Shown: positions 3,414-63,135 of the stretch, piece by piece
How the letters are laid out: each line of letters begins with the position of its first letter
Position numbering within the stretch: position 1 is the first letter of the stretch
Assembly: GCA_021792365.1 (NCBI GenBank)
Contig: JAJYUT010000003.1
Location: 310,001 to 374,000, forward strand
Source of the DNA: Pseudomonadota bacterium
Lineage (GTDB): Bacteria > Pseudomonadota > Alphaproteobacteria > Dongiales > Dongiaceae
Direction of reading: 5' to 3'
Length of the DNA stretch: 64,000 bases
Translations under genes and position numbers: made by a program
The notes under the pieces: generated by a model
The model's database searches: none
What the model was told of the DNA's origin: nothing
The model's input: only the letters and a program-made list of their open reading frames with translations

Positions 3414-3632
3414 CAGGCAGATCTCCACGACAGGCCGGGGGAATCAGTGGCCGGTTCGCGGCGTTTTCCTTCGCCTGTGGAATAGATTCGCCCTCCGCCT
3501 GTTCCTATATTAGGGTCGTTCCGCGCGACCCCCAGACCGGCGGAATTGCGCGATCGTCGATGAGGGCCCCAGGGTGCGGCTCTCTCAACCAGCCCCAGAG
3601 TGCGGCGAGCGTCCGAAAGGATCGAAGCCATC

Positions 3633-4043
3633 ATGTCGTCTCCCGCGGAGAGAGTGACCGTATTGCCGGCCGCCTTGCACGGCCGCACCATGAAAGTGTT
3701 CGTGCGCGACCTGATCCTGCCGTGCCGGATCGGCGTTTACAGCCACGAGAAGCACGGCGCGCAGCGCGTGCGCATCAACCTGGAGCTGAGCTGCCTCGAG
3801 CATCCCGCGATCAATGACGAGCACCAGAACGTCGTCTGCTACGCCGAGGTTGTCGACAGCATCCGTCGGCTGCTGGCGGAAGGCCATATCAATCTGGTCG
3901 AAACCCTGGCCGAGCGGGTCGCGGCGCTCTGTTTGGAAGATCATCGCGTCCTTGGCGCCAAGGTCCGCGTCGAGAAGCTGGACGTCATCCCGGAGGCGAG
4001 CGCGGTCGGGGTGGAGATCGAGCGGCACCGCGTCAACCGGTAA
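3633..4043 (+). CDS. folB: Dihydroneopterin aldolase
   Basis: This 136-aa protein converts 7,8-dihydroneopterin to 6-hydroxymethyl-dihydropterin in folate synthesis, and may also epimerise it. Family landmarks are visible: the first strand (VFVRDLILPCRIGVYSHEK) with the active-site Glu, the LVETLAERVA motif with the second conserved Glu, and a conserved Lys in VRVEKLDV. The ATG at 3633 is preferred over the earlier ATG at 3600 because it lies about 11 nt after AAAGGA and gives a normal family length. It follows the FolM-like reductase by 219 nt. It is the last gene before the long GANTC-rich gap. Confidence 0.93.
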   Translation: MSSPAERVTVLPAALHGRTMKVFVRDLILPCRIGVYSHEKHGAQRVRINLELSCLEHPAINDEHQNVVCYAEVVDSIRRLLAEGHINLVETLAERVAALCLEDHRVLGAKVRVEKLDVIPEASAVGVEIERHRVNR

Positions 4044-4538
4044 TTTGACGTTACGAAGAAACTCAGCATGTCTGTCGAAGCCGTGCGATTCGCCCGGGAA
4101 TCCGCCGCTTTTTCCGTCAGCATCGCCGTAGAATGGCGGAATCGTGCGGCTTCCGGAGCGAGTTGTGCACAGAGGCCTAGGCGAGTCTAGGCGTCCAGAA
4201 AGAGTCAAGCACTAATTCCGCCCTGTGACCAAGCTATGACCAAACGATTCACCAGAAATAAGCGAAATCAAATAGATAGAGCGTTGTGCCTAATTTTTGG
4301 GCAACCAGTGCGAGCCGCGGGATTCTAAGACTGACACATTTTCGCAGCGGGTTTTTCGACAGACTTATCCACAGGATTCGTGGATATCTGAGTGGTTGGT
4401 CAAAGCACGACTCCTGGTTGGTAAATGGAATCGCGGAATCCTGCGATTCATCCTTCGATAATTTATCCCGCAGCGACACATCTGCGGATCAGCCAGCCAC
4501 ATTTGACCGCGGTCCTTGCGCAGCGTAATCGACGGCTC
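4044..4538. promoter_or_regulatory. AT-rich intergenic region with 12 GANTC sites and DnaA boxes
   Basis: This 495-nt gap is visibly poorer in G+C than its surroundings, most clearly from 4200 to 4480. GANTC, the CcrM methylation target, occurs at 4087, 4098, 4139, 4183, 4202, 4246, 4321, 4375, 4409, 4428, 4436 and 4445. A random 65%-GC sequence of this length would hold about one. A perfect DnaA box (TTATCCACA) lies at 4365-4373. Weaker matches are TTGTGCACA at 4163 and, on the other strand, ATATCCACG at 4379-4387. Short open frames here have no family features. The region probably holds the uvrC promoter; it may also be a methylation-controlled switch or a replication-linked site. Confidence 0.75.
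4365..4373 (+). promoter_or_regulatory. Perfect DnaA box
   Basis: TTATCCACA matches the consensus DnaA-binding 9-mer exactly. It sits in the AT-rich part of the GANTC cluster. A GATTC site (4375-4379) begins one base after the box, so methylation state could affect binding nearby. Whether DnaA binds here as an initiator or as a transcription factor cannot be told from sequence. Confidence 0.7.
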
Positions 4539-6605
4539 ATGAGTTCCAAGGCCAACAAACCCGATCCCGTCGAGGCAATCGACGACCAGCCGGACCCGGT
4601 GGAGGTGCCGACAGGCGGCCTCGGCCACGGGCTGGAGGTGATCCGCGAGCAGGTGAAGACCGTGCCGGCGGGTCCCGGCGTCTATCGCATGATCAACGCG
4701 CGCGGCGACGTGCTCTATGTCGGCAAGGCGCGCGACCTGCGGAAGCGCGTGTCGTCCTACACGCAGATCTACCGGCTTGATGCGCGGCTCCAGCGCATGG
4801 TGGCGGAGACCGCCGCCATGGAGTTCGTCGCGACCCATACCGAGGTCGAGGCGCTGCTGCTGGAAGCCAACCTCATCAAGCGCTACCTGCCGCGCTACAA
4901 CGTGCTGCTGCGCGACGACAAGAGCTTCCCCTACATCGCCATCACCGGCGACCATGCGGTTCCGCAGATCATGAAGCACCGCGGCGCCCGCAACCGGCCC
5001 GGCGAGTATTTCGGTCCCTTTGCCTCCGCCGGCGCGGTGAACCGCACCATCGTCGCCCTGCAGCGCGCCTTCCTGCTGCGCAATTGCAGCGACAGCATGT
5101 TCGCGATGCGCACGCGCCCCTGCCTGCAGTACCAGATCAAGCGCTGCTCCGCGCCCTGCGTGCAGCGCATCTCGGCCGAAGACTACGGCGAGCTGGTGCG
5201 CGAGGCGCGCGACTTCCTGACCGGCAAGAGCCGCGAGATCCAGGACCGCCTGGTGCTGGAGATGCGCGAAGCGAGCGACGCGCTGGACTTCGAGCGCGCC
5301 GCGCGGCTGCGCGACCGCATCCACGCACTGACGCAGATCCAGTCGCGCCAGGACATCAACTTGGCGGGTGTCGAGGAGGCCGACGTGATCGCGGCCTGGC
5401 AGGAAGCAGGACAGACCTGCATCCAGGTCTTCTTCTTCCGCAACCACGGCAACTACGGCAACCGCGCCTATTTCCCGTCGCACGACAAGAGCGCGGAATT
5501 GCCCGAGGTGCTGGCCGCCTTCATGGGGCAGTTCTACGAAAACAAGCAGCCGCCGCGCCTTGTCCTGGTGAGCCAGGAGCCGGCCGAATGCGCGCTGCTG
5601 GCCGAGGCGCTCGGCGTGCGAGCCGGCGCCAGGGTCGAGATCCTGGCTCCCCAGCGCGGCGACAAGCGCAAGGCGGTGGACCACGCCCTGCTGAATGCAA
5701 AGGAGGCGCTGATCCGGCGCATTGCCGAATCCGGCACGCAGCAGAAGCTGCTGCGCGCCGTGGCCGAACTGTTCGGCCTCGACCATCCGCCCAAGCGCAT
5801 AGAGGTCTATGACAACAGCCACATCTCCGGCACCAATCCCTATGGCGCGATGATCGTCGCCGGGCCGGAGGGCTTCATGAAGAACCAGTATCGCAAATTC
5901 GCGATCCGGCCGGCGACGCGGAGCGCGGCCCCCCTGCAGGACGCGGCGCAAGAGGGGGAACAGCCGGCGGAGCTGGGACCGGCCGGCGAAGTGCGCGCGG
6001 AGGAAGCCGAGAGCGAGGCCGAACGCGCGGCGGTCGCGATGGACGACGCCTCGATCAAGACCGAGATCCAGCCCGGCGACGATTACGCGATGATGCGCCA
6101 GGTCCTGACGCGGCGCTTCTCGCGCGCCATGCGCGAAGATCCGGAGCGGCAGGGCGGCACCTGGCCGGACCTGGTCCTGATCGATGGCGGCCTCGGCCAG
6201 TTGTCCGCCGCGATGGACGTCTTCCGCGAGCTCGGAATCGACGTGCCGGTCGCCGCCATCGCCAAGGGGCCGGACCGCAACGCGGGGCGTGAGCGCTTTT
6301 TCCTGCCGGGGCGCGAGCCGTTCCTGCTCGATCCCAAGAGCCCTGTGCTCTATTTCCTGCAGCGCCTGCGCGACGAAGCGCATCGCTTCGTGATAGGCGC
6401 CCATCGGGCCAAGCGGTCGTCGCAGATCGGCAAGTCGGAGCTGGACCAGATTGCGGGCATCGGCGCCAAGCGGAAGAAGGCGCTGCTCCTGCATTTCGGC
6501 TCGGCACGCGCGGTTGCACGCGCGGGTCTTTCGGATCTCTGCGCCGTCGAAGGCATCAACGAAACCGTCGCCAGGAAGATCTACGATCATTTCCACGGCG
6601 GCTGA
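4539..6605 (+). CDS. uvrC: UvrABC excinuclease subunit C
   Basis: UvrC makes both incisions around DNA lesions after UvrA/UvrB loading. The 688-aa product has an N-terminal GIY-YIG nuclease ([24 protein letters not shown]), a Cys-rich region ([23 protein letters not shown]), a UVR helix that meets UvrB ([17 protein letters not shown]), an RNase H-like endonuclease half ([31 protein letters not shown]) and two C-terminal HhH motifs ([17 protein letters not shown]). An acidic, low-complexity insert lies between RKFAIR and DDYAMM. ATG 4539 is chosen over an upstream ATG (4425) that would add residues unlike the family. pgsA and mobB follow on the same strand. Confidence 0.96.
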
Positions 6606-7862: not shown

Positions 7863-8516
7863 TCAGAACGGCAGGGGCGGCTCCCCGGACAGGCATTCCC
7901 GCGCCAGTGCCAGCGTCGCCTTGCGCTGCTGCGCCAGGGCGGCGCGGTCGATGCGCGCGACCATCTCAGCCGCCGCCGCGAAGGAGCGCTCCACGCGGCT
8001 TGCGACGTAGCGCAGCACGTCCTCGTTCACCTCGAGGCCACGATCGGCGAATTGCTTCGCCATCACCGCGACCAGCAGGTTGTCGTCCGGCGCGGCGAGC
8101 GCTACCGCTGGAATGCTGGCGAGGCGCGAGGCAAGGTCCGGCAGCGCGACCGGCCAGCGCGCCGGCGGCGTTTCGCTCACGATGAGCAGATGGCCGCCCG
8201 CTTCGCGCAAGCGGTTGTAGAGATGCAGCAACGATGCTTCCGCCCAGCCCGGCGGCTCGTCGAGCACGACGGATGGCGGCACATCATCCGCGGGCGGTCG
8301 CGCCAGGAAGTCCGCCTGACTGCGCGCCTGCCACACATGAGCCAGATGCGTCTTGCCCGATCCCTTCGGCCCATGGATCGCGAGCGCGTGCGCCGGCCAG
8401 TCGGGCCAGCGGTCGATCCAGGCCACGGCGTCGCGGTTGCCGGGCGCGATCACGAAATCGGACATGCCCAGGGCCGGACGGTATTCCAGGTCGAGCGGGA
8501 GCTGCTGCGCCGCCAT
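7863..8516 (-). CDS. hdaA: DnaA-related regulatory ATPase HdaA
   Basis: This 217-aa protein is related to the AAA+ domain of DnaA. Hda-type proteins act with the beta clamp to stimulate DnaA-ATP hydrolysis and stop over-initiation. The N-terminus QQLPLDL resembles the clamp-binding peptide of Hda. A P-loop (HGPKGSGKTHLAHVW) and a Walker B-like segment (SVVLDEP) follow. Its start overlaps the stop of the AI-2E family gene by 1 nt (TGATG). The gene is well placed to act on DnaA bound at the boxes seen elsewhere in the window; that link is inferred. Confidence 0.88.
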   Translation of the reverse strand: MAAQQLPLDLEYRPALGMSDFVIAPGNRDAVAWIDRWPDWPAHALAIHGPKGSGKTHLAHVWQARSQADFLARPPADDVPPSVVLDEPPGWAEASLLHLYNRLREAGGHLLIVSETPPARWPVALPDLASRLASIPAVALAAPDDNLLVAVMAKQFADRGLEVNEDVLRYVASRVERSFAAAAEMVARIDRAALAQQRKATLALARECLSGEPPLPF

Positions 8517-58550: not shown

Positions 58551-59039
58551 ATGGAATGGACTGAGCAGAGAATTGAGATGTTGCGGCGGCTCTGGGGCCA
58601 AGGCCAGACCGCCAGTCAGATCGCGGTAGCCCTTGGCGGGGTTACGCGAAATGCGGTTATCGGCAAGGCGCATCGCCTCGGCCTCACCGGCCGGCCCTCG
58701 CCGATCAAGCGTGATGCCAGCGGTACCGCGACGCCCAAGCGCCGGCCGGTGCCACGGCGCGCCCTGTCGCCGCAGCCGAAGCCGATGATGCCGCTGCGCG
58801 CTATGCCGGCGCAGCCGCAGGAGAGCAGCACGACGGCGAACCCGCCGCCTGCGCCGCGCGAGCAGACACGCAGCTATCCGCCGGCGCGCGCGCATGGCGG
58901 GATCAAGAGCTGCTCCTGGCCGATGGGCGATCCCAAGCAGCCGGGCTTCCACTTCTGTGGCGAGCCGTCGGAGCCGGGCCGGCCTTATTGCGCGCATCAT
59001 TGCCACCAGGCCTATCAGCGGAAGTCGGAGGCGGCGTAA
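58551..59039 (+). CDS. gcrA: GcrA cell-cycle regulator
   Basis: This 162-aa protein starts MEWTEQRIEMLRRLWGQGQTASQIAVALGGVTRNAVIGKAHRLGL, the GcrA DNA-binding domain. A Pro-rich linker and a Cys-rich end (CSWPMGDP, FHFCGEP, PYCAHHCHQAY) follow. GcrA activates promoters with methylated GANTC sites by binding sigma-70. ATG 58551 has GGAGG 5 nt upstream and fits the family start better than ATG 58434. Its presence implies a CcrM/GcrA system in this organism and bears directly on the GANTC cluster before uvrC. Confidence 0.95.
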   Translation: MEWTEQRIEMLRRLWGQGQTASQIAVALGGVTRNAVIGKAHRLGLTGRPSPIKRDASGTATPKRRPVPRRALSPQPKPMMPLRAMPAQPQESSTTANPPPAPREQTRSYPPARAHGGIKSCSWPMGDPKQPGFHFCGEPSEPGRPYCAHHCHQAYQRKSEAA

Positions 59040-59065
59040 CTCCCGCGCCGCATTGCCGGGGGATG

Positions 59066-59102
59066 GCGGCCGGCCCTGAGGGGGTGTCCGGCCGCTTTTT
59101 TT
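59066..59102 (+). terminator. Rho-independent terminator after gcrA
   Basis: An 8-bp GC stem (GCGGCCGG / CCGGCCGC) with an inner CCC/GGG pairing is followed by seven Ts. It lies between gcrA and the GNAT gene. Confidence 0.88.
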
Positions 59103-59115
59103 GGCTGCTTGATCG

Positions 59116-59691
59116 ATGAAGAAGGCCAAGCGCACTCCCATCGAGGCCCGGGCCGCGGAGATCGCGGATGTGGAAGGGCTGACACGGCTTTATACGTACC
59201 GCAACGCCTATGCGCAGACGTTGCAGCTGCCGTTCCAGAGCACAGAGATCTGGCGAAAGCGGCTGATGACCAACGACGAGACACAGCATACGCTGGTCGC
59301 GATCGTTTCAGGCGAGCTGGTCGGCAATCTGGGATTGACGCGTCTCGTTCGTCCGCGCCGCGCTCATGTCGGAGAGATCGGCATGGCCGTGCGCGACGAT
59401 TGGCAGGGCAAAGGCGTCGGCTCGGCGTTGATGCGGTCGGCCATCGATCTCGCCGACAATTGGCTCGGCCTGCGCCGGCTGGAGCTTCGGGTCCATGCCG
59501 ACAACGCGCGCGCCATCGCGCTCTATCGCAAGTTCGGCTTCGAGGTGGAAGGCACCCACCGCGCCTACGCTCTGCGTGATGGAGTTTATGTGGACTCTCT
59601 ATCCATGGCGCGCCTCATCGAGGGTCCTCGCATCATAAGCGCAAGCAGGAAGGCGAACGCTCATCCCGGTGTCCAGGTCCACAAGATCTAG
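59116..59691 (+). CDS. GNAT-family N-acetyltransferase
   Basis: This 191-aa protein resembles YhhY-type L-amino-acid acetyltransferases (YRNAYAQTLQLPFQSTEIWRKRLM). The acetyl-CoA loop is VRDDWQGKGVGSALM and the closing helix is NARAIALYRKFGFEVEGTHR. The tail after MARLIEG (GPRIISASRKANAHPG...) is not typical and may mark the border of the low-GC insert that follows. Confidence 0.9.
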   Translation: MKKAKRTPIEARAAEIADVEGLTRLYTYRNAYAQTLQLPFQSTEIWRKRLMTNDETQHTLVAIVSGELVGNLGLTRLVRPRRAHVGEIGMAVRDDWQGKGVGSALMRSAIDLADNWLGLRRLELRVHADNARAIALYRKFGFEVEGTHRAYALRDGVYVDSLSMARLIEGPRIISASRKANAHPGVQVHKI

Positions 59692-59956
59692 GTGCGGGCA
59701 CGCACGGTGAAAGTGCCGATGGGAGGCGCGGTGTAGCCGCTGCTGTTCATTGTTCTTGGGACCCATTAGCTCGAGCGTTCTTATTGCTTGGCCATCGATG
59801 ACAAAGACAATTTCGGACTGATTCGGCTAAAGACGTCAATCCTGTTTGACCGACTGCTGCCTCCATCTCACATCATCATGCTTGTGGTGTTGGTGAGTTT
59901 ACCGCCAATGCTACCATCGCACTTGATATATTTGGGCGGCGAAGGGGAGGAGACGC

Positions 59957-61642
59957 ATGGGTGACGATGAAACGAGAGCCCTCCAAAGCGAGTGGTTCGA
60001 GATAAGAAAGCTGTTGCATCCAGTTGTCCAGGACCGCCGGATGTGGGAAATGGCGCAAGCTGTAAGAGACGGTCTGGCTGCCGATCTCGATAGACCGGGC
60101 TCAAAACTGAAAAGGCCTCCTCGTCATCAACGAACGAAGCCCACCCCTTCATATACTCCGCCGAATTTTCAACAGATGCTTGACAAGGTGTGGCCAACCG
60201 TCCAGCGGACAAAGCTCGACGGATCAAAATACAAGCGATATCTACGCGCATATCACAAAGCACTTAGCGAGGTGAGGAAGCCGCCAAGCGGTTTGGAGAA
60301 CCTGCTGCGAGACAGGCTGCAGTTCGTGGAAACCGAACTTGCCAAAGTGCCGTCTTCGCCGGAGAAGTGCGTAAGTCTCCTCCAGGCGTGGGTCCGACAT
60401 GAACCGGAAATGGACGTCCTTAGTTATCTTGCTGCTCGCGGAGACCAATTGGATCCAGGCGACATATCCTATTGGGTCAGTAGGCGGAAGGAGGTCCGAC
60501 TAGATGCGTCTCCGCAGGGATATGAAGCAATCTTCGGATCGATTGAGTTCGATTTCTTTAATCGAGTCGATCGAGTCGCTGCTTCATCGCATCTTCGTAG
60601 ACTTGAAATGCAGATCAAAAGGTCAATAGCGGAAGAAGGCGGACGTATTGGCGAGTGGCGCATTGACGGGCTCAGCATCAATTTTCGCAATCTGCTCTGT
60701 ACGTTGTGGCTATGTGCGAGAGTTCCCGGGCTTCGACAGGCGGTATCATCGGAAGCTCGCAAAGCAGTCTTGGAGGTGCTTGCCTGCCAAAAGACTGACG
60801 GTTCGTGGCATGAGACAAGTGGACGCAAAGAGAATTTCGATGAAGAGGCCCCTTCGCCCCTTTCTACGGGTCTTGCTGTCTGTGCGATGCAGTCATTCCT
60901 TCCTTCAAATACGACCTCGGATCAACAGATCCGTGCCATTGCTTGGCTGTGTCAACAGCAACTGCAGAACGGAAGCTGGGCGGACAGTATCGTTGCCGCC
61001 AATGGCGATTTTTGGACCACTCTTGCGGCGCTAACTGCGCTCAAGAACACTCAGGCTACCGATCTGGGTAGATACATAGATGCGGGAGAGAAATGGCTGC
61101 TCTTGCAGCAGAACGGCTTGGGTGCATGGGAAGGTCGCCCATTTTCTAACTCCTTTGCGTCTGTCCAGGCGCTCCAATATTTCGGGCAGGTTAGGCGCGG
61201 CGATACACCTGCTGATCGATACACCGCCGCCGCTATTCAGTTGCTGGAGCGTGCTTCTGAAATACTCAGTCAGACGCACATGGAGTATGCTGATAGGGCA
61301 CTAGCAATATTCGCGATTCACCACGCGCTGGAGTTCTTCCTCTACGGCCTTCTGCAACTACCTTCAATTAACCTTGATGTATTCAACACGAGCAAAAGGA
61401 CGATTGGCCTGACGGAAGCTCTATCAAACTTCCGCGATCATCTAATTGCTGAACGAAAGCTCGAGGCGCACAAGCAGCTTTCGCACCGCACTCAGATATC
61501 TGAGATGATAAACGACCGCGACAATTCTGTTCATAGGGCACAGGACGTTCCGGAGGCGCATTTGAAAGCGCACTTAGAGACGGCCAAACGCTTTATTTCG
61601 AAATACAGCCTTATGACGACGGGCCGCGACATATTGAGCTGA
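59957..61642 (+). CDS. Alpha/alpha-toroid protein with C-terminal HEPN-like motif
   Basis: This 561-aa protein has no family I can name with confidence. The middle (about 260-420) carries helical repeats with QW-type motifs like those of prenyltransferases and squalene cyclases: CQKTDGSW (277-284), QLQNGSW (335-341) and QQNGLGAW (384-391). The acidic DxDD motif of true cyclases is not seen. The C-terminus (about 440-555) is helical and has RDNSVH (521-526), a fit to the RxxxxH motif of HEPN RNases. Codon use and G+C are lower than in flanking genes, indicating transfer. GGGGAGGAG precedes the ATG. It stands alone. Confidence 0.8.
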   Translation: MGDDETRALQSEWFEIRKLLHPVVQDRRMWEMAQAVRDGLAADLDRPGSKLKRPPRHQRTKPTPSYTPPNFQQMLDKVWPTVQRTKLDGSKYKRYLRAYHKALSEVRKPPSGLENLLRDRLQFVETELAKVPSSPEKCVSLLQAWVRHEPEMDVLSYLAARGDQLDPGDISYWVSRRKEVRLDASPQGYEAIFGSIEFDFFNRVDRVAASSHLRRLEMQIKRSIAEEGGRIGEWRIDGLSINFRNLLCTLWLCARVPGLRQAVSSEARKAVLEVLACQKTDGSWHETSGRKENFDEEAPSPLSTGLAVCAMQSFLPSNTTSDQQIRAIAWLCQQQLQNGSWADSIVAANGDFWTTLAALTALKNTQATDLGRYIDAGEKWLLLQQNGLGAWEGRPFSNSFASVQALQYFGQVRRGDTPADRYTAAAIQLLERASEILSQTHMEYADRALAIFAIHHALEFFLYGLLQLPSINLDVFNTSKRTIGLTEALSNFRDHLIAERKLEAHKQLSHRTQISEMINDRDNSVHRAQDVPEAHLKAHLETAKRFISKYSLMTTGRDILS

Positions 61643-61773
61643 GGCCGAGGCTCCCTCAAGGATCATCTGGAGCTACCGCTATGCGCTACCCCCGCACGCC
61701 GTCTTCCAGCGGAGGCATACACGGACCCACTTTGTACCCATAGTGGTTACCTGGTTGGAAGGCGTTATGCGGC

Positions 61774-63135
61774 TCAGCGCTTGCCGTTGCCGGCGGGCGG
61801 CTTGGCGGTCGAGGGGGTGATGGCCCGGTTCTGATAACGGCCCTTCTGCAGGTAGTGGACCAGCGGATTGGTCTTGACCGACCGCACGTCGGGATAGGCC
61901 TCGAGATAGGCCTGCGAAGAGAACATGGGCGAAGGGTCGCGTCCTTCGAACCCGCCATAGAGCACGTAGTGCAGGGCCGGCGGGATGCCGACCGCCGCGA
62001 CGTCGGGATATTGCCGCAGATACCAGGCCTCGTGCATCAGGCCGCTCTTCAGCACCAGCTTGGCGTGGCGGTAGGGCTTCATCTGCTTCTTCATGCGCGA
62101 GAAGCGGAAGGTCGCCACCCAATAGGCGCACAGGGCCCATTGCCGCAAGTTGTAGAACGCCCAGCGGTGGTTCTTCACCAGCCGGCGCAGCGGCTTGGTG
62201 ACCCGCCACCAGGCGCTCTCCTCCACCTTGCGTAGCCGCTTCAGCGTCTTCACGTGATCGACCCGCGCGGCGGCCAGGGCATCCTTCGCCGCGCTGAGCG
62301 CGGATTCGAGCTTCGCCACCTGGTCGCTGTCGAGCGCGGCATTCAGGCGGCGCCGGACATCGGCAAGATCGGCCTGCATGGCGATCGTCCTGCCGAGGCG
62401 CGCGAACATCTCGCGCACCTCCAGCGTCCGGGGCGCGGTGCTGTCGAGCGCGAACAGGTGCTGCAAGGCGGGCGGCAGGTCGTCGCCGATCCCGAGGATC
62501 CCGAGCCCGGCGCCGTGCACGAACTCGAAATGCGGATATTTCTCGGTGAGGACGTGCCACAGCTCGAGCGCCTCGGTCGCGGTCGCCGGATCGTCGATTC
62601 CGTGCACCAGCATCACAGCGCGCCTGGAGAGCTTCGGCAGCCAGGCGCGATAATCCCGCGCCAGCGCGCCGCTTTCCATCGCGTCGATGCTGACGAGGTC
62701 GACGCTGCCATCCTCGAACCGCTCCAACAGCTGCGCGGCGGCCATGAGCTGCGAGAATTGGGCGTAACGCGCATCGTGGAACTGGGTGAGTTCGCCGCCA
62801 CGCGCGCCATCGGAAATTGCGTAACAGCGCGTCGGTAAGCGTAACCGGCTGACCGCCTGGCAAAAGCCGAGATAAGGCGCGGTTGGCGCTTCGGTCAGTT
62901 CCACCAGGGTGAAGGGGCGCAGCGCATCCACCAGCCAGAACAGGAACGGCACATGCTCCGACCGCGGCGCGGCATCGGACCGGTCAGGCGTCCAGAACAT
63001 CGCAGGCGTGACGAAGCCGCCGCCGAGCCGCGACCACCAGCTGCCTAACTCGACCGTTATGCCGGTGGCTCTTGCGGCCTCACCCAGCGCGACTGACTCA
63101 GCGCCGATCGGCGTCTCTTTGGTCAAGGCCAGCAT
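61774..63135 (-). CDS. Methyltransferase-like protein with C-terminal YPDV repeats
   Basis: This 453-aa protein has an N-terminal class I methyltransferase-like domain of the Methyltransf_24 type (VDLVSIDAMESGALARDYRAWLPKLSRRAVMLVHGID, with the conserved ID and W-P-L). A coiled-coil stretch follows (about 265-315: LADVRRRLNAALDSDQVAKLESAL). Two copies of a WYLxxYPDV-type repeat end it (AWYLRQYPDVAAVGI, AYLEAYPDVRSV), with HYVLYGGFEGRDPSP. Such repeats are common in enzymes of cell-surface glycan synthesis. The motif I loop of the methyltransferase is weak, so activity is uncertain. Confidence 0.82.
   Translation of the reverse strand: MLALTKETPIGAESVALGEAARATGITVELGSWWSRLGGGFVTPAMFWTPDRSDAAPRSEHVPFLFWLVDALRPFTLVELTEAPTAPYLGFCQAVSRLRLPTRCYAISDGARGGELTQFHDARYAQFSQLMAAAQLLERFEDGSVDLVSIDAMESGALARDYRAWLPKLSRRAVMLVHGIDDPATATEALELWHVLTEKYPHFEFVHGAGLGILGIGDDLPPALQHLFALDSTAPRTLEVREMFARLGRTIAMQADLADVRRRLNAALDSDQVAKLESALSAAKDALAAARVDHVKTLKRLRKVEESAWWRVTKPLRRLVKNHRWAFYNLRQWALCAYWVATFRFSRMKKQMKPYRHAKLVLKSGLMHEAWYLRQYPDVAAVGIPPALHYVLYGGFEGRDPSPMFSSQAYLEAYPDVRSVKTNPLVHYLQKGRYQNRAITPSTAKPPAGNGKR

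Follow-up and report, generated by a model that had tools for sequence, protein, structure and literature searches.

DARS (DnaA-reactivating sequence) sites promote the release of ADP from ADP-DnaA, and their loss delays initiation or lowers the amount of ATP-DnaA in vivo. RIDA by HdaA is known in alphaproteobacteria. The defining trait of a DARS is a head-to-head pair of DnaA boxes, boxes I and II (PMC10380432; PMC5742627). Activity of DARS2 requires the Fis sites FBS2-3, and Fis has been published as limited to E. coli-related gammaproteobacteria (PMC4245941, PMC8682772). The DARS2 core has been described as restricted to gammaproteobacteria or to E. coli-proximal beta/gamma species (PMC4245941, PMC5742627, PMC8682772), DARS-like sites have been noted in Vibrio cholerae (PMC6090056), and one review, citing Fujimitsu 2009, places similar sequences in "many proteobacterial species." In the literature searched, which left out the founding DARS paper (Fujimitsu et al. 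2009), we found no report of a DARS in alphaproteobacteria; that paper aside, the DARS-type site proposed here would be new to this class as far as the search extended.

The locus described here is the gap between folB and uvrC in a 64,000-nucleotide stretch of a Dongiaceae genome (positions 310001 to 374000 of host contig C28), referred to below as the window. The closest named match to the encoded UvrC is that of Dongia deserti, with 94% identity. A sequence-only reading had listed 12 GANTC sites, one perfect and two weaker DnaA boxes in the gap, and gcrA and hdaA in the window. Every GANTC coordinate proved exact, all three boxes were present, and both genes were located. An IHF-alpha (ihfA-type) gene and a CcrM-type protein with a RAMA domain are encoded elsewhere in the host genome. 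Short repeats inside the gap were examined, and no explanation of the gap came from them. The features are as follows, in window coordinates.

3600 to 4043, plus strand: folB, dihydroneopterin aldolase, the conserved left neighbor of the gap
4044 to 4538, no strand: AT-rich folB-uvrC gap, 495 bp, 52% GC
4087 to 4449, no strand: cluster of 12 GANTC (CcrM-type) sites, at 4087, 4098, 4139, 4183, 4202, 4246, 4321, 4375, 4409, 4428, 4436, and 4445
4163 to 4171, plus strand: weak upstream DnaA box TTGTGCACA, 202 bp before box II
4253 to 4389, plus strand: match to the class-wide sequence model R1, 75.8 bits
4266 to 4278, plus strand: IHF-type site AATCAAATAGATA, one mismatch to WATCAANNNNTTR, 99 bp before box II
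4287 to 4303, no strand: conserved dyad TGCCTA-ATTTT-TGGGCA, between the IHF-type site and the core
4353 to 4361, plus strand: DnaA box III, TTTTCGACA, weak, 3 bp before box II (start 12 bp upstream)
4365 to 4373, plus strand: DnaA box II, TTATCCACA, perfect
4375 to 4379, no strand: GANTC between head-to-head boxes II and I, touching box I
4379 to 4387, minus strand: inverted DnaA box I, CGTGGATAT on the plus strand, 5 bp after box II
4539 to 6605, plus strand: uvrC, the usual right neighbor
7863 to 8516, minus strand: hdaA, DnaA inactivator (RIDA), the proposed opposing activity
58551 to 59036, plus strand: gcrA, reader of GANTC methylation

At about 59000 to 62500 of the window, GC content falls to ~55% and the local skew changes; this part is possibly a recently acquired segment.

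The gap contains three DnaA boxes, with box I opposite in direction to boxes II and III, at the spacing found in DARS1 and DARS2. When E. coli control loci were scanned for this three-box geometry, DARS1 and DARS2 were both found, with spacing identical to that of the gap, and the geometry was absent from E. coli oriC and datA and from shuffled sequences (0 matches). On the 1.02-Mb host contig, it occurred in this gap only. The same controls (36 kb) were searched with R1, a sequence-only model built from alphaproteobacteria alone. DARS1 was the best match (27.8 bits, E = 5.5e-8), followed by oriC (16.3 bits), datA (15.6 bits), and DARS2 (14.1 bits). Since DARS2 scores no better than oriC or datA, R1 bits alone pick out DARS1 and not DARS2, and only the box arrangement separates DARS2 from the other two loci.

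The likeness to DARS2 extends beyond the core (III, 3 bp, II, 5 bp, inverted I) to an IHF match 99 bp before box II and to extra DnaA boxes. In E. coli DARS2, IHF matches were found at -99 and -83, 3 bp apart, as are the published sites IBS1-2 (PMC4245941), and the matched stretch of DARS2 corresponds to the segment flanked by the primer arms with which boxes I to III were deleted (PMC4585315). In alphaproteobacteria, the IHF-type site, as identified by sequence match, was fixed at -97 to -99, and it was present with no more than one mismatch in 42 of 61 loci, compared with ~4 by shuffling. Both elements lie roughly midway between origin and terminus, DARS2 at about 0.41; across ten single-contig genomes (rounded sizes), the alphaproteobacterial element was found between about 0.09 and 0.58 of the half-circle, counted from parB, a distance that is weakened as independent support because relatives share gene order. 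The two differ in that the neighbor is mutH for DARS2 and folB/uvrC here, a conserved palindrome separates the IHF-type site from the core here, the element here is GANTC-rich in some families, and box II here is the stronger match. Because mutH adjacency is lacking, we use the term "DARS2-type" and not "orthologous DARS2," the location being descriptive and not functional. A protein that binds the dyad possibly stands in for Fis.

The core is also nearly identical to that of DARS1 (TTATCCACAGGAATAGTGGATAAC versus TTATCCACAGGATTCGTGGATATC). DARS1 lies in the bioD-uvrB gap, so that an excinuclease gene adjoins both elements, uvrB in DARS1 and uvrC here; this shared UvrABC neighbor may be a coincidence or may reflect a functional link. 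DARS1 differs in being shorter, and a search within 350 bp of its core revealed no IHF-type match. From this anatomy, we consider it likely that the gap is an alphaproteobacterial element of the DARS2 type that reactivates ADP-DnaA.

The element is widespread in the class. R1 matched 277 of the 385 genomes sampled at E values up to 0.01, usually once per genome; the stricter filters of this search may have led to an undercount of strong matches, and the weakest ones, close to the threshold, may be due to chance. In very diverse alphaproteobacteria, a same-strand DnaA box was nearly always found upstream of uvrC, preceded at an almost constant distance by an AT-rich stretch, and an alignment of 42 relatives revealed short, sharply conserved blocks. 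Of 80 regions upstream of uvrC, 55 had the complete geometry, and no shuffle did. When spacing was left unconstrained, the distance peaked at 5 bp for the inverted box (50/64 loci) and at 3 bp for the direct one (56/64 loci). Anchoring on the single best box mistakes box III for box II in about a dozen loci, which the three-box scan corrects; box III is weak in Dongia. In 87 of 113 loci, inverted box I was present at the fixed distance of 5 bp, and in 51 of those 87 its first base was C, the canonical base being T. The weak upstream box lay mostly at -188 or about -200 from box II in relatives, a difference of about one helical turn, and the dyad TGCCTA-N5-TAGGCA spanned -78 to -64 of box II (TGCC...GGCA at -78/-66). 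Seven Parvibaculum-type loci (L038, L041, L042, L044, L046, L047, and L070) have boxes II and III and the IHF-type site without inverted box I; they constitute a natural test of whether a site without box I still recharges DnaA. The element is not universal: the Caulobacter genome examined, like several of the rhizobial ones, gave no clear match. In Afipia (locus L241, about 1511 to 1543), the core alone was matched, as GTTTCCACA-gcg-CCATCCACA-ggaac-TGTGGATGA, near a ParA-like reading frame; this may be a site of the DARS1 kind in a rhizobial lineage without the folB-uvrC element.

DnaA boxes, an IHF-type site, and a GANTC cluster in AT-rich DNA could also mark a chromosomal origin of replication, which the sequence-only reading had mentioned while favoring a regulatory or DnaA-titrating role. 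The GC skew, followed in stretches over the 1.02 Mb of C28 and sampled on host contig C9, excludes this: it turns from negative to positive at hemE, at about 706 to 710 kb of C9 and 14 kb from parB (hemE at 706.5 kb, best parB at 692 kb), and the gap lies on C28 inside a negative-skew arm with no turning point. DnaA-like boxes were found upstream of hemE (C9 about 706 kb), in keeping with the usual alphaproteobacterial origin. That region shares DnaA boxes and GANTC sites with the gap and differs in having the skew turning point and in lacking the DARS geometry. On a Roseobacter-like contig, skew samples likewise had the same sign on both sides of uvrC. An origin in the gap is thus exceedingly improbable, and a role in DnaA control is supported, so that the sequence-only reading holds in part. 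That reading had not recognized the DARS geometry with its IHF-type site, the occurrence of the element in most of the class, or its persistence where uvrC is missing. The conserved noncoding stretch might instead be the gene for a structured small RNA, also raised by the sequence-only reading. An Rfam search of the window returned no match, a consensus fold of the 42 relatives contained 0 pairs, and a small fold of 8 sequences had a few pairs, to which covariation contributed next to no energy; only short blocks resembling protein sites are conserved, which makes an RNA gene very improbable. Separately, the GC skew of C28 flips twice inside 100 kb, at about 640 kb and 740 kb, which suggests an inversion or an assembly join.

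Two further explanations keep DnaA at the locus and assign it a different function. The gap could be a datA-like site, at which IHF-assisted assembly of ATP-DnaA on direct boxes hydrolyzes or titrates DnaA and restrains initiation. Like datA, the gap is a noncoding locus away from oriC with DnaA boxes and an IHF site, and its IHF-type site is flanked by boxes of one direction, a weak one at about -200 on one side and III and II on the other, as is the IHF site of datA (PMC5742627). These direct boxes stand alongside the conserved inverted box I, whereas the essential datA boxes all share one direction with no head-to-head pair, and the geometry scan misses E. coli datA while finding both DARS. 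We regard a datA-like role as unlikely. The gap could also be a promoter region through which DnaA, IHF, and GcrA/CcrM methylation control the transcription of uvrC (or folB) through the cell cycle. DnaA and GcrA are transcription factors in Alphaproteobacteria, the densely packed GANTC sites are retained by close relatives, and uvrC lies downstream in 29 of the 30 best class-wide R1 matches, most of which have SDR/folB upstream. The distance from the element to uvrC is variable, however, ranging from 62 to 268 bp, and the box spacing is like that of DARS and not like that of a promoter. Four loci (L222, L234, L235, and L237) still have the element next to SDR/folB without uvrC downstream, and in the last three of these the gene that follows is encoded on the opposite strand, its 3' end facing the element. 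Since the element is kept where uvrC is gone, sometimes between convergent genes, it is not just a uvrC promoter. We judge a promoter function alone to be rather improbable; a side role in uvrC control is possible.

The GANTC cluster is distinct from the DnaA/IHF core in its distribution. In the whole window, GANTC is depleted (144 observed versus 305 expected), as is typical of CcrM genomes. The gap has 12 sites compared with a mean of 2.86 and a maximum of 10 in dinucleotide shuffles (0 of 5,000 shuffles reached 12), and the densest other 400 bp on the whole 1.02-Mb contig has 6, the maximum for AT-richer windows of that contig as well. In ~0.44 Mb sampled from C9, 11 GANTC sites were observed within 400 bp (C9:786546-786945), in a gap beside an aminotransferase-like gene that is a possible GcrA/CcrM-controlled promoter; because of this second cluster, the one before uvrC is rare but not unique. 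On C28 (697510-697600), tandem DnaA-like boxes TTATCCCCG, TTATCCACA, and TCATCCACA lie beside a tRNA-like sequence, with 6 GANTC sites in the next 400 bp.

The three closest relatives keep 67 to 83% of the window's GANTC positions, compared with 28 to 46% for control positions. Other family members have 9 to 10 sites, partly at new positions, a few other families have 5 to 9 per locus, and Rhodobacterales-like loci have ~1. The sequence-only reading held that the cluster would not be special if orthologous gaps lacked the sites; in this comparison the outcome is mixed, the DnaA element being widespread and a high GANTC density occurring only in Dongiaceae and a small number of further families. 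As a core feature of the element, the cluster was rejected, being clade-limited whereas the DnaA/IHF core is class-wide. The gap does combine a GANTC excess that is conserved with CcrM and GcrA genes in the same genome, as expected of a CcrM/GcrA-controlled region, and a GANTC spans the spacer between boxes II and I in 23 of 87 loci. The suggestion of a methylation-gated promoter can accordingly be kept as to gating, which is possible given the sites retained in close relatives and those between the head-to-head boxes. Because GANTC density is clade-limited, it is plausible that methylation control was added in particular clades to a DnaA element that is older. More specifically, CcrM methylation, including that of the GANTC between the head-to-head boxes, might switch DnaA reactivation on or off after fork passage; we advance this methylation-gated recharging only tentatively.

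As a DARS2-type element, the gap would act within a cycle of DnaA nucleotide states. After initiation, HdaA with the clamp turns ATP-DnaA into ADP-DnaA, the known RIDA process. Leftover ADP-DnaA would bind boxes I and II head to head, and box III would stabilize the complex. IHF, bending the DNA about 98 bp upstream, would bring the weak upstream box and a palindrome-binding protein to the core. ADP would then leave, and DnaA, reloaded with ATP, would be ready for another round of initiation. Where the element is rich in GANTC, as in Dongiaceae and a few other families, it could be tuned by the CcrM methylation state after each passage of the fork. Built like the E. coli recharging sites and, in this family, dense in cell-cycle methylation sites, such an element probably helps to time chromosome replication.

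If this reading is true, about 70% of the alphaproteobacterial genomes sampled have a DARS that shares the box and IHF geometry, and the recharging of DnaA would date back much further than has been supposed. That the Caulobacter genome examined and several rhizobial ones lack the element would account for its having escaped notice in model species. If methylation gating is also true, the CcrM/GcrA cycle would be coupled directly to the DnaA nucleotide cycle; to our knowledge, E. coli DARS sites are not known to couple a methylation cycle to the DnaA nucleotide cycle. With its GANTC load, the element allows a direct test of whether DNA methylation is linked to DnaA activity.
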